Part shown: one piece after another, positions 10,574 to 19,887 of the stretch | Layout of the letters: every line of letters starts with the position of its first letter | How positions within the stretch are numbered: the first letter of the stretch is position 1 | IMG/VR virus record: IMGVR_UViG_3300042924_001318 | Coordinates: 1-21,731 of that record | From: a virus | DNA length: 21,731 nt | Strand: one strand, 5' to 3' | Notes under the pieces: model-generated | Told to the model about the DNA's origin: nothing | The model's input: the letters and a program-made list of their open reading frames with translations, nothing else | Database searches by the model: none | Position numbers and translations under genes: made by a program

Positions 10574-11042
10574 GTTCGTCCTTTAGGGTTAGCGGCTCAG
10601 TAGCCTCATGCGCTAATTGATCCGGCGTAGCGTCATATACGCGGCCCGCCAAGACGCGAGATTCTGCCTCTTGCAGCGCGGCGACAATACTAATCTGGGA
10701 TTTGATATCAACTTGGACTTGCTGTTTAGCCACCCAACCATGAAGGTTTTGGAGCAGGGCAAGCGCGGCTTTGGTGTCCCCATTAATCGCGCCTTCTCGC
10801 AAGGCCGACGCTGCCTCAACCTCAGAGTCCGCACGACCTTTCCCCTCGGCGACCGCAGCCGCGTTATCTAACTGGCAGAGTCTACGGTACTCAACGGGCA
10901 ACAACCCTGCCGCAAAGGCCAAGGCATCACCCTTTAGCCCGAGTTTGGCGGCATCGTAAATCTTTTGCAGAACCTCCGGCGATGCCTTCAGTTCACGAGG
11001 CGCAAAAGGAATGGACTTAAAGGATTCTGTTACGAGGTTCAT
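10554..11042 (-). CDS. terS: Terminase small subunit (DNA recognition), probable
   Basis: I choose ATG 11042 (MNLVTESFKSIPFAPREL), 162 residues; the frame is open 28 codons further, but that would overlap most of the upstream Cys-rich gene. Residues ~20-60 form a helix-turn-helix-like region (EVLQKIYDAAKLGLKGDALA FAAGLLPVEYRRL). Then comes a helical oligomerisation-type part (AAVAEGKGRADSEVEAASAL, NGDTKAALALLQNLHGW) and a C-terminal tail. Its place directly before TerL, overlapping it by 20 bases, and the HTH-plus-helical layout support TerS, which binds the packaging start site and feeds TerL. The identification rests partly on context. Confidence 0.82.
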   Translation of the reverse strand: MNLVTESFKSIPFAPRELKASPEVLQKIYDAAKLGLKGDALAFAAGLLPVEYRRLCQLDNAAAVAEGKGRADSEVEAASALREGAINGDTKAALALLQNLHGWVAKQQVQVDIKSQISIVAALQEAESRVLAGRVYDATPDQLAHEATEPLTLKDERATADL

Positions 11043-11220
11043 ACCGGAACTCTTTGCCAGAACAGGCGGGAACGTCAGACATCCATCCGTGGTGGGTGGC
11101 ATGGGCACACCAGACCTTCTCAGCAACCTTAGTCACCTCAGCAGCCCAGAAGCAAGAGCGGCATACCAGAGACTTGGCAGCAAACTCTGCCCACTCCAAC
11201 TCCGACATACGTATCGACAT
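11017..11220 (-). CDS. Cys4 zinc-ribbon-like small phage protein
   Basis: The product has 67 residues from ATG 11220 (MSIRMSELEWAEFAAKSLVC); an alternative TTG start lies at 11262 and another ATG at 11208. Four cysteines at residues 20, 23, 38 and 53 are arranged C-x2-C-x14-C-x14-C, with His residues near the third (CAHATHHGW), suggesting a bound zinc. The end overlaps the TerS start by 26 bases, so it is the first gene of the leftward late operon. None of the starts has a convincing ribosome site. Function unknown; a DNA-binding or HNH-like cofactor role for packaging is possible, but no catalytic His-Asn pair is visible. Confidence 0.65.
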   Translation of the reverse strand: MSIRMSELEWAEFAAKSLVCRSCFWAAEVTKVAEKVWCAHATHHGWMSDVPACSGKEFRYEPRNRIL

Positions 11221-11419
11221 AAGCGGACTGTAACAGAAGGTTTGGCAGGGAAGGAAGAGCAACGTGCAGGGTGATCCTGCCGGGAGGCCGCGATCTCCAA
11301 CAACCGTGGAGCCTGTGTGCCGAGGCGGAAGCGTCTAGGGATACGTTTAGTGCCTTAGATGATGGAATCCTTTCCTTCAGTTACCTCTCGGTCGCTACCA
11401 GCGCATCTGGTCAGACGTT

Positions 11420-11453
11420 GCTAATAAAGGATAACGGTAAAAGGTTTATTAGC
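11420..11453. repeat. Perfect 9-bp inverted repeat, AT-rich
   Basis: GCTAATAAA at 11420-11428 is matched by TTTATTAGC at 11445-11453, with 16 bases between. It is followed by an A-rich run (11465-11483). It may be a protein-binding dyad upstream of the late operon; as an RNA hairpin it would be weak. Confidence 0.6.
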
Positions 11454-11536
11454 GAAGAGCGTTAATAAAAAAAATTAAAAAGTTTTTGTGAGGGCATCGT
11501 AATCGTGACCGGTCAACGCCATGCCCTACCCCCCCC

Positions 11537-11716
11537 TGTTGTTTTGCCGCAACACCCTGTTGTGCGTGTACCACAACCCTAGACGCGAATGGTTATCGTT
11601 ATGCGTAAGAGAATCGTTTGCAATACGTTATGTTGCGTAGATGCAACACGTTGCGTTTATGCAACATGGCTATGTTGTGGCGTAGATGCAACAGTTAGTG
11701 TTGCGTAGGTGCAACA
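11537..11716. repeat. Cluster of five 18-bp dyads, consensus TGTTGC-N6-GCAACA, plus one relative
   Basis: Copies: 11537-11554 (TGTTGT/GCAACA), 11631-11648 (perfect), 11649-11666 (CGTTGC/GCAACA, directly abutting), 11676-11693 (TGTGGC/GCAACA), and 11699-11716 (perfect). A related GTTGTG-N7-CACAAC lies at 11559-11577. Spacers of three copies are nearly the same (GTAGAT, GTAGAT, GTAGGT), so the sites arose by duplication and are conserved beyond the arms. Such 18-bp dyads are the size expected for an HTH dimer. Candidate roles are an operator array for the phage regulator or iterons of an origin. Confidence 0.85.
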
Positions 11717-11756: not shown

Positions 11757-11800
11757 GTAGTCAAAACGACTACTAACAAAAACCCTATGCAGAACATAGG
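11757..11800. repeat. Two neighbouring inverted repeats
   Basis: GTAGTC-AAAAC-GACTAC occupies 11757-11773 and CCTATG-CAGAA-CATAGG occupies 11784-11800, the latter extendable with one mismatch. Both could form small hairpins in single-stranded DNA or RNA. They sit at the border between the dyad cluster and the AT-rich tract. No U-run follows, so they are not typical terminators. Confidence 0.55.
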
Positions 11801-12022
11801 TTTAAGTCTCTGTAGTAAAAATCAGTAGGTTTTCTCCATATTTGTTTTTATGTCATAACTTTTTTTGCAACTTCACTTCTCTCTATCTTTTTTACTAACA
11901 ATACGTTTTTCCCCATGATTTTCAATAGTTTAGGTGTTAGTAACTTTTACCCTAACTTCTGAATAGTGCTACTACGCTTACTGACGCAACAGATACCTGG
12001 CGTTTTGTGTATGTAACTTGTG

Positions 12023-12051
12023 TTGACACGATAGGCAAGACATGGTGTAAT
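12023..12051 (+). promoter_or_regulatory. Strong sigma70-like promoter for the rightward small-gene operon
   Basis: A consensus -35 TTGACA (12023-12028), a 17-base spacer and a -10 TGTAAT (12046-12051) predict a start of transcription near 12058, about 30 bases before the first gene. A GGAG ribosome site lies 9 bases ahead of ATG 12088. The 9 bases GTGTTGACA around the -35 are identical to those of the leftward promoter at 19681-19711. A second GTTGACAAC follows at 12059-12067 and could be an operator half-site. Confidence 0.8.
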
Positions 12052-12087
12052 GGAATCGTTGACAACATAAACACGGAGTAACTAGCA

Positions 12088-14807: not shown

Positions 14808-14938
14808 CGGAGTTCCACGAACGATGGGGCTTGCAGCCTACCTACCCACGGCTGACCCGCTGCACCCGTCGATATTGGGTGACATATCTGGGCAGGTGTA
14901 TCGACACGGCGAGGGCGACACTATGGCGGGATTCCTGA
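14804..14938 (+). CDS. 44-residue basic protein (GTG start)
   Basis: GTG 14804 overlaps the previous stop (GTGA), preceded by an AGGGTAGG ribosome-site-like stretch. The product (MTEFHERWGLQPTYPRLTRC, TRRYWVTYLGRCIDTARATL, WRDS) is Arg/Trp/Tyr-rich. It resembles the 40-residue Trp/Arg-rich protein in composition but not clearly in sequence. Its last 16 bases overlap the next mini-gene. Function unknown and support moderate. Confidence 0.5.
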   Translation: MTEFHERWGLQPTYPRLTRCTRRYWVTYLGRCIDTARATLWRDS

Positions 14939-14985
14939 TAGCCGTCGCCTTGACGGTACTTGCGTCGATATTGTTCGACGATTAA
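14923..14985 (+). CDS. 20-residue membrane mini-protein
   Basis: ATG 14923 has GAGG eight bases upstream. The product MAGFLIAVALTVLASILFDD is a single hydrophobic helix with a two-Asp end. It closes the rightward operon, just before a GC-rich hairpin. A micro-membrane protein of this kind may modulate a host membrane complex, but random chance cannot be excluded at this length. Confidence 0.45.
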   Translation: MAGFLIAVALTVLASILFDD

Positions 14986-14987
14986 CG

Positions 14988-15008
14988 GAGGGGGCTACGC
15001 GCCCCCTC
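14988..15008. terminator. GC-rich hairpin between convergent operons
   Basis: GAGGGGGC (14988-14995), loop TACGC, GCCCCCTC (15001-15008) is a perfect 8-bp stem. It lies 2 bases after the rightward operon and 2 bases before the end of the leftward primase-helicase gene. The following bases (TCTCATTTTA) are only partly T-rich, so it may act as a weak or bidirectional terminator. Confidence 0.65.
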
Positions 15009-15010
15009 TC

Positions 15011-16336
15011 TCATTTTACGGCCTGAAGGTCAGGCTTACCCTCGACCATCGCCCGGATGTCTGACTTGCTGCGGTCTGCCAACTCGGGAGCCACCCAGAG
15101 GTGTTTCGGGGTCTGATATTCGCGGCTCATCACCCGGCCAATATCCTTCCAGCCGCTCTCCCGTAGGGCGACGAATAACGTCTCACGAGAGGGCTTATGG
15201 CCGTCCGTACCTGCGGCAATACCAGATAGCACCTCTGACCACGGAGAGCCTATAACGCCTCTGGCGAAGACTCCGCGACGTTGCCGCACCATGTCCGCGA
15301 TAAACGCCTCGCCGCCGCTCATGCCAAGATCGACCATCGCCAACTTCGCATCGGTTAACGGCGGTACGGCTCCGGGGTTGAACGCGCTAACGTCTCGCGC
15401 ATCGAGGTAACCCGCCACAGCCTCAAACCCGCCTTTGCCGTACCAATCCCACAGCCGTGCGGCTTCGTCGTCCGGTAGGCGTGGCGCTTGCGACCAGATG
15501 ACGAACCAGCGTCGGTCGTCAGCCGGAATCGTAATGGGCGCTCGGTCGTTGCTAAACGCCAACACGAAAATCCTATTCACCACATAGTACGGGTGCTGTT
15601 GCTTCTTGTTGACTAGCAGCAACTCGGGCGGCGCAGCGATCACGGGCTTCAGGTTGTTCTCCATCGCCCTACGGTCATCGCCCTTGCGGTATCGAATCTC
15701 GTTTAGCACGATCACCTCGGACTCGTAGGTATAGCCCCACGAGCCAGCGACCTCTTCAGCCCTAGCCACGGCTATGTTCTTGAGCGACCCGCCGCCAATA
15801 GACCACAGGAAAGGCGCCCAGAGCGTGTCCTTACCGCCACCCGGTAAACCCGTGTGCAGCACGGCGTGATTGATCTTGCGCTGCGGGTTCTGGCGCTTAT
15901 AGGCCATCACGTTCAGCACATGCTCGCGCTCGAAGTCGGTCGGGATCATGCGGTGCAGGTGGTTCAGCCACAGCGACACATCCGCGCTCTGTGCGGCTGG
16001 CCGTGAGTCTTTCCACTTGTTGACGTAGCCCACCCCGGCCTTCTTTAGCAACTCAGTTTCGCCCGGCGCGTAAGTCAGGGCGTTAGCGACGTAACTACCC
16101 ATCGCAGCCCGGTTCTCATCGAAGAACGTGGCCGCCTCAATGCGCCTAGCCTTGTTGTGTACGGAGTAGCACGGCGTACCCCGAAACAAGGCGTTAAACG
16201 TCTGCCGGGAATAGTCCTGATGCGTCTTTACATCGAAAAACAGGTCGCCCTCGGCAACGTAAACGAATCGTTTAAACCAGTCAGCCGGTGCCAACTGGGA
16301 TACATCACCATCCGCGAGACTTTCGTATTCATCCAT
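15011..16336 (-). CDS. Primase-helicase, SF3/D5-like (DUF5906 type)
   Basis: I prefer ATG 16336 (MDEYESLADGDVSQLAPADW; 441 residues), with GGGG seven bases upstream; a GTG at 16366 in the same frame would add 10 residues. The central region shows the P-loop HTGLPGGGKDTLWAPF (about 155-170), then VIVLNEIRYRKGDDRRAMEN and a family-typical VNRIFVLAFSNDRAPITIPADDRRWFVIWS segment (sensor/arginine-finger region). This is the DUF5906/D5-type superfamily 3 helicase of phage replication; a dedicated primase catalytic domain is not obvious, so it may be helicase-only. It is the last gene of the leftward replication operon. The leader is structured (see 16364-16389), pointing to translational control. 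Confidence 0.9.
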   Translation of the reverse strand: MDEYESLADGDVSQLAPADWFKRFVYVAEGDLFFDVKTHQDYSRQTFNALFRGTPCYSVHNKARRIEAATFFDENRAAMGSYVANALTYAPGETELLKKAGVGYVNKWKDSRPAAQSADVSLWLNHLHRMIPTDFEREHVLNVMAYKRQNPQRKINHAVLHTGLPGGGKDTLWAPFLWSIGGGSLKNIAVARAEEVAGSWGYTYESEVIVLNEIRYRKGDDRRAMENNLKPVIAAPPELLLVNKKQQHPYYVVNRIFVLAFSNDRAPITIPADDRRWFVIWSQAPRLPDDEAARLWDWYGKGGFEAVAGYLDARDVSAFNPGAVPPLTDAKLAMVDLGMSGGEAFIADMVRQRRGVFARGVIGSPWSEVLSGIAAGTDGHKPSRETLFVALRESGWKDIGRVMSREYQTPKHLWVAPELADRSKSDIRAMVEGKPDLQAVK

Positions 16337-16373
16337 TGCATAACCCCACTGTTCTGCTATTCTCACGGAGCAT
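16329..16373 (-). CDS. Possible 14-codon leader peptide before the primase-helicase
   Basis: ATG 16373 has the best ribosome site in the leader (CGGAG nine bases upstream) and opens a short frame (MLREN SRTVGLCNG) ending TGA at 16331-16329. The stop overlaps the start ATG (16336) region of the primase-helicase, as ATGGATGA, in a different frame. A translating ribosome would thus end exactly at the next start. Coding is not proven; it may be a coupling device. Confidence 0.35.
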   Translation of the reverse strand: MLRENSRTVGLCNG

Positions 16374-19680: not shown

Positions 19681-19708
19681 AGTATACTCCCGTTGACGAT
19701 CATGTCAA
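19681..19708 (-). promoter_or_regulatory. Strong leftward sigma70-like promoter for the recombination/replication operon
   Basis: On the minus strand the -35 is TTGACA (19708-19703), a 16-base spacer follows, and the -10 is TATACT (19686-19681). Transcription would start near 19674, about 27 bases before the ATG at 19647. The -35 lies inside the operator dyad 19692-19709, so repression by the adjacent Cro-like protein is likely. Confidence 0.85.
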
Positions 19709-19709
19709 C
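19692..19709. promoter_or_regulatory. Perfect 18-bp operator dyad GTTGAC-GATCAT-GTCAAC
   Basis: The arms GTTGAC and GTCAAC are exact inverse complements with a 6-base spacer, the same size as the TGTTGC-N6-GCAACA sites at 11537-11716. It covers the leftward -35 and the ATG at 19702 of the Cro-like gene, so binding would block the leftward promoter and feed back on the regulator. A weaker GTTAC-TGT-GCAAC follows at 19714-19726. Confidence 0.75.
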
Positions 19710-19721
19710 ACCTGTTACTGT
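19693..19721 (+). promoter_or_regulatory. Possible rightward promoter for the Cro-like gene
   Basis: TTGACG (19693-19698), 17 bases, then TACTGT (19716-19721). The -10 is weak (three matches). If used, RNA would begin at about the ATG at 19729, giving a leaderless message. It overlaps the operator dyad. Confidence 0.4.
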
Positions 19722-19887
19722 GCAACCTATGACACCGAAACAACTACTGAAGATTTATGGCTCCCAGAGCGAGATCGCTCGGGCGTTGGGCGTAACCCGG
19801 CAGGCTGTGCTGCGCTGGTTCAAGGAAGACAAGATTCCTGCGTTGCGCTTGTACCAAATTCAATGCGTGCTGAAGGTCAATGAATAA
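19702..19887 (+). CDS. Cro-like HTH regulator (P22 Cro type)
   Basis: The product has 61 residues from ATG 19702, or 52 from ATG 19729 (MTPKQLLKIYGSQSEIARAL), which leaves the operator dyad wholly upstream; no Shine-Dalgarno site precedes either. The HTH is KIYGSQSEIARALGVTRQAVLRWFKEDKIP, followed by LRLYQIQCVLK, the layout of P22 Cro-like proteins (helix, GSQ, ARALGVTRQAV recognition helix, then IPxLRxYQ). It should bind 18-bp dyads as a dimer. The adjacent perfect dyad over the leftward promoter is the obvious target. Overlaps the next gene by 8 bases. Confidence 0.85.
   Translation: MSTPVTVQPMTPKQLLKIYGSQSEIARALGVTRQAVLRWFKEDKIPALRLYQIQCVLKVNE

Follow-up and report, generated by a model that had tools for sequence, protein, structure and literature searches.

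Clustered operators and iterons are both known kinds of phage control site. In P4 and satellite-type origins, short iterons are read by the C-terminal domain of the replicative helicase itself. Phage repressors can act through dispersed or multiple operators, as P1 c1 does and as the stoperators of phage L5 illustrate, while the sites of lambda CII have the form TTGC-N6-TTGC at the -35. The array described here, built of the dyad TGTTGC-N6-GCAACA and located in the non-coding hub of a podovirus, is nearest in anatomy to the lambda origin, in which four 19-bp imperfect inverted-repeat iterons lie next to an AT-rich tract (PMC7466680): the hub likewise has about four imperfect inverted repeats of 18-19 bp beside AT-rich DNA. 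Unlike the lambda iterons, which lie inside the initiator gene, the array is placed between operons, its spacing is irregular (18, 27, 23), a separate family of 9-mers follows the helicase, and a copy of the dyad sits on a late promoter. No O or P homologue was recognised, and no O family was found among the window proteins searched. Because the helicase-linked repeats are separate and a promoter copy exists, we argue that the dyads are mainly regulatory rather than lambda-like iterons. The likeness to P4-type origins fits the neighbouring 9-mers, which surround AT-rich DNA in both orientations and change with the D5/DUF5906-like helicase, and not the dyads. As in the P1 c1 and L5 systems, one dyad-type site is repeated at a control hub and present again at a distant promoter, but here the sites are concentrated in one array, which has no known repressor homologue as reader. 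The dyad also resembles CII sites in its TTGC half-sites, its 6-base spacing and its position at a -35, yet its half-sites are inverted whereas those of CII are direct, and no CII homologue was found.

The window, by which we mean the whole stretch of 21,731 nucleotides analysed, is an entire IMG/VR fragment (IMGVR_UViG_3300042924_001318) of a freshwater podovirus with a P22-like portal. Its late genes (terminase, portal and tail genes) run leftward on the minus strand, and the early genes begin on the right-hand side of the non-coding hub, which measures about 0.8-1 kb (Table 1). A consensus promoter scan did not report the candidate early promoter listed there. The hub had no DnaA boxes (one occurs elsewhere in the window), showed no clear GC-skew switch, and gave no match to named phages in blastn. 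Several smaller elements surround the array. A module of A-tract, GACCGG and C-run at 11466-11536 is kept in array-positive and in several array-free phages; read leftward, it has TACGAT in the window and TATAAT in two divergent relatives (L120 and G016) as the possible -10 of a late promoter, with no clear -35. A leftward terminator-like hairpin followed by a T-run lies at 11784-11800 (minus strand) between the AT-rich region and the dyads. A conserved Cys/His-rich open reading frame of 81 aa (11017-11262, minus strand) overlaps the start of terS in another frame and is present in most array phages, and in G001 an HNH/homing-endonuclease-like gene (14859-15215; family assigned by eye) stands between terS and the array, adjoining the structured RNA described below.

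Table 1. Coordinates of the dyads, the neighbouring repeats and the candidate regulators in the window.
Feature	Position	Strand	Remarks
Dyad S1, TGTTGT-N6-GCAACA	11537-11554	+	One mismatch; adjoins the C-run of the conserved module
Dyad S2, GTTGTG-N7-CACAAC	11559-11577	+	Sixth, looser dyad with 7-base spacer; kept in relatives
Dyad S3, TGTTGC-GTAGAT-GCAACA	11631-11648	+	Perfect
Dyad S4, CGTTGC-GTTTAT-GCAACA	11649-11666	+	One mismatch; abuts S3
Dyad S5, TGTGGC-GTAGAT-GCAACA	11676-11693	+	One mismatch
Dyad S6, TGTTGC-GTAGGT-GCAACA	11699-11716	+	Perfect
200-bp stretch of lowest stability in the window, 70% A+T	11767-11966		Probable DNA-unwinding region of the origin
9-mer CTACTAACA, one mismatch to TTACTAACA	11770-11778	-	Helicase-allele-specific repeat
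9-mer TTACTAACA, exact	11892-11900	-	Helicase-allele-specific repeat
9-mer TGTTAGTAA, exact, inverted relative to the 11892 copy	11935-11943	+	Helicase-allele-specific repeat
Candidate rightward early promoter, TTGACA-N17-TGTAAT	12023-12052	+	Read from the sequence; -35 conserved in relatives
HTH_39 (PF14090) winged-helix protein, 68 aa	14279-14485	+	Leading candidate for dyad reader
DUF5906 replicative helicase, 451 aa, allele A	15011-16366	-	Without primase domain; tracks the 9-mers, not the dyads
Cro operator, GTTGAC-N6-GTCAAC	19692-19709	+	Separate operator, kept with Cro in relatives
P22-Cro-like repressor gene	19705-19887	+	Excluded as reader of the dyads

The five dyads of the original prediction, two perfect and three with one mismatch within 11537-11716 and two of them abutting, are where it had placed them, and their clustering is far beyond chance. 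A scan of the whole window allowing up to two mismatches gave 8 matches against 1.36 expected, a number reached by none of 100 dinucleotide shuffles; dyads of any 6-N6-6 type with at least five of six pairs occupy 11 sites in the 300 bp around the array, compared with 1.3 on average and at most 7 in 2000 shuffles. S2, which the prediction lacked, is possibly a relaxed copy of the array dyad. The supposed near-conservation of the spacers applies to four copies (GTAGAT, GTTTAT, GTAGAT and GTAGGT) and fails for the first (TTTGCC), while the adjacency to AT-rich DNA is borne out, the window's least stable 200 bp beginning at about 11767. The aberrant left-arm G of S5 is itself retained in most relatives.

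A terS search yielded 80 loci, among which relatives with terS at least 85% identical were taken as close. TGTTGC-N6-GCAACA, which it had been proposed to look for in the hub of related phages, is neither absent nor scattered there: dyads stand at the same place in 33 of 33 close relatives examined that have this hub, mostly with the spacing of 18, 27 and 23 bp. Intermediate relatives (terS about 64-77%), found by pattern search, carry them too; sister phages with terS of 60-72% identity, and those with a large terminase about 77% identical, are without them, and two loci (L063 and L065) have degenerate sites only. The 128 dyads of 34 hubs comprise 30 distinct sequences, in which the right arm GCAAC never changes, the left arm hardly ever does, and the two central spacer bases are variable; the spacer orientation G6/T11 is seen in 22 of the 30 and its reverse in none. 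L120 and G016 have the entire array turned round with respect to terS, which argues that the dyads are an element at the level of DNA. Among the matches listed in a pattern search of the whole collection, the clusters of at least three dyads belong, on a check of shared genes, to this phage group, and the others are mostly single dyads in unrelated contigs, as chance predicts. Prophage relatives in named bacterial genomes proved to be terL relatives only, with neither a dyad cluster nor an HTH_39 match.

Between terS and the array, at 11258-11423 on the plus strand, lies what appears from covariation to be an undescribed structured RNA of about 165 nt (range about 150-190), also seen at 5705-5865 in L254 and at 3148-3298 in L289. 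In ten diverse sequences, 15 of its 52 predicted pairs show compensatory changes, and the plus strand is the only one on which several fixed G-U pairs can form. The motif occurs in 171 fetched loci, some of which are overlapping pieces of the same contig; it is on the strand opposite to terS in all 161 loci where terS was found, at a median distance of 160 bp, and in L289 it is complete and neighbours a different kind of terminase. Rfam gave nothing at its gathering thresholds, for this RNA included, and weak miRNA-like Rfam hits over the dyads were set aside as chance. The RNA merits a study of its own.

To the right of the dyads the hub contains a second family of repeats, the 9-mers, which the original prediction did not mention. 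The DUF5906 helicase of dyad phages has two main alleles: compared with the window, A is at about 87-100% and B at about 53%. B is nearer to the helicases of dyad-free phages (72%) than to allele A (64%), in the core as well as in the C-terminal domain. The dyads are the same with either allele, which rules out the helicase C-terminal domain as their reader, whereas the 9-mers co-vary with it: the AT-rich part of the hub in the window clade has TGTTAGTAA with helicase A and TAGGTCA with helicase B. TAGGTCA occurs in 8 of 8 phages with B and in 0 of 19 with A; TTAGTA, conversely, in 18 of 19 with A and in none of the 8 with B. The helicase allele changes seven times on the terS tree, at least three of these changes being forced, and the small genes between hub and helicase are common to both alleles, so that simple linkage of the 9-mers to the helicase is a weak explanation. 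In two loci (L033 and L035), helicase A and TTAGTAA repeats occur alongside a right half of the dyad array otherwise found with helicase B; the break therefore falls between the two repeat families. Since the 9-mers in the least stable DNA follow the helicase allele and the dyads do not, we place the probable replication origin to the right of the dyads, at about 11767-11966. In five of the six dyad phages checked (the window, G001, G002, G003 and G016), the genome's least stable 200 bp fall in this region. In dyad-free sister phages the same hub has tandem 9-mers, TTTGGGTCA or TGTGGGCAA, in both orientations around AT-rich DNA; six such hubs (L051, L053, L061, L064, L069 and L081), where 9-mer iterons of either orientation surround an AT-rich palindrome, look like a textbook origin layout, and these phages have a longer helicase, of about 770 aa in complete copies.

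Exact copies of GTTGC-N6-GCAAC outside the hub are rare in near-complete relatives, and in G001, G005 and G006 they are single copies about 13 kb away, on the -35 of the scaffold/capsid promoter, 74 bp before the ATG. The window ends before the scaffold gene, and this copy is known from its relatives alone. Aligned on a 5' hairpin that is conserved, the promoter has the form TTGCRC-N17-TAAAGT (the hexamers are our own reading), and the dyad spans the -35 and the upstream half of the promoter spacer. Ten genomes with a visible array include seven with an exact promoter dyad, two with one mismatch and one (G004) with none, its promoter having been replaced; two more genomes whose hubs are cut off (G038 and G039) also have an exact copy, as against 0 of 7 dyad-free phages. 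The contrast of 9/10 with 0/7 has a hypergeometric P of about 4e-4, calculated by hand and ignoring kinship. The seven exact copies have six different spacers (ACATAC, GCTGAC, ACGGAA, ACGAAA, GCTGAA and GCCTGA) between fixed arms. In the relatives of the window the same dyad is thus found at more than one control region, hub and scaffold promoter, and it is the promoter copy that makes a transcription regulator the best reading of the dyads. Upstream of the scaffold gene in G001-G014 (e.g. about 13286-13320 in L204), a 5'-terminal RNA hairpin, CTGGTGCGGTTCACCAG, lies just before the ribosome-binding site, with the compensatory variants CTGATG..CATCAG and CTGGCC..GACCAG.

The most likely reader of the dyads, as a lead from gene content and a structural model, would be the HTH_39 protein. 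It is encoded in 22 of 22 array genomes and in 0 of 14 others, has an invariant helix GCFRLAAR, and is predicted with confidence to be a winged helix (pLDDT 89.8) that weakly resembles ArsR/MarR-type folds (best PDB E-value 0.026); the libraries searched give no function for the family. Co-occurrence does not single it out, because the early module is inherited whole and SSB, exonuclease, Erf, Cro and others share its distribution. The Cro-like protein can be set apart. It had been suggested that one regulator serves both the hub and the operator at 19692, the arm size and spacer being equal at the two places. The geometry does agree, and Cro is found together with the array, but the arms have different letters and the register is off by one base. 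In L022 and L158, moreover, an unrelated Cro with an operator ATACCAG...CTGGTAT replaces the old pair while the hub dyads stay GTTGC; the array does not change together with Cro, as the 19692 operator does, which rules Cro out as dyad reader, and the notion of a shared Cro-like regulator is already contradicted and hardly tenable.

The alternative of origin iterons, to which an O-like initiator (HTH_39 or another early protein) would bind, opening the AT-rich DNA and handing over the helicase as in lambda, is possible though rather unlikely. The four main 18-bp dyads adjoin the least stable DNA in the window, G001, G002, G003 and G016, the anatomy is comparable to that of the four lambda iterons (PMC7466680), and a new initiator binding the dyads would fit the loss of functions in these phages: the helicase of the array phages has no primase domain, and no phage DNA polymerase was found in the near-complete G001. 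However, a large non-coding hub would be AT-rich in any case, it is the 9-mers that are helicase-specific, L120 and G016 carry the dyads together with a separate GTGGGTGGT array around AT-rich DNA, and a dyad also occurs alone on the capsid promoter. The original choice between operator array and origin iterons was the right pair of options, and the separate 9-mers and the promoter copy incline the evidence to the operator; an accessory role of the dyads at the origin stays conceivable. What is odd for simple operators is that four of the hub dyads are some 300 bp distant from the early promoter, and none of these four overlaps a recognisable promoter.

Dimeric regulators of bacteria commonly have dyads of this geometry as their sites, and a phage binder is a candidate only; still, binding by a host transcription factor or nucleoid protein is improbable, given that sister phages with a large terminase about 77% identical, which lack the dyads, differ by the whole early gene module. 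A shade less credible is a packaging site (pac or cosB-like) for the small terminase. The array does lie about 400-600 bp upstream of terS and its type follows the terS tree, both of them uninformative about packaging, but the distance varies by more than 400 bp, a homing endonuclease-like gene intervenes in one genome, a capsid-promoter copy has no packaging meaning, and the terS of array-positive L159 and L197 is no nearer to that of the window than is the terS of array-free phages (64-67%). Hairpins in a transcript, acting as attenuator or leader, are disfavoured and very improbable: the fixed spacer bases G6 and T11 would add a G-U pair on the plus strand and the hub copies are all oriented one way (22 against 0), yet G016 and L120 have the array the other way round with respect to terS, the transcript of the capsid promoter probably starts downstream of the copy there, and the dyad is defined by its invariant arms alone.

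On these comparisons of sequence, we give a probability of about one half to the reading of the dyads as a multi-site operator array for a dimeric, clade-specific regulator of late genes, most likely HTH_39, separate from the probable origin. The candidate HTH_39, presumably as a dimer, would bind the dyads of the hub, which separates the late from the early operons, and the same regulator would bind the copy overlapping the -35 of the capsid/scaffold promoter, thereby controlling late gene expression. Repression is the simplest guess at its effect, since the dyad covers the -35. The array would lie beside, and apart from, the AT-rich stretch with its helicase-matched 9-mers that is probably the origin. 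A more doubtful extension is that the origin-side array and the capsid promoter share one reader, a winged-helix phage protein, and that replication of the hub titrates this protein and so switches on the capsid genes 13 kb away.

Podoviruses of this kind are common in freshwater metagenomes; we found no description of their regulation, and a literature search for a GTTGC/GCAAC operator gave nothing. The comparison separates two interleaved repeat systems within one hub, one going with the helicase allele and the other with the late promoter, and it names a 68-residue HTH_39 protein, from a family without stated function, as the reader to test. If titration is true, it would be a late switch coupled to copy number, acquired as these phages lost a primase and polymerase of their own.
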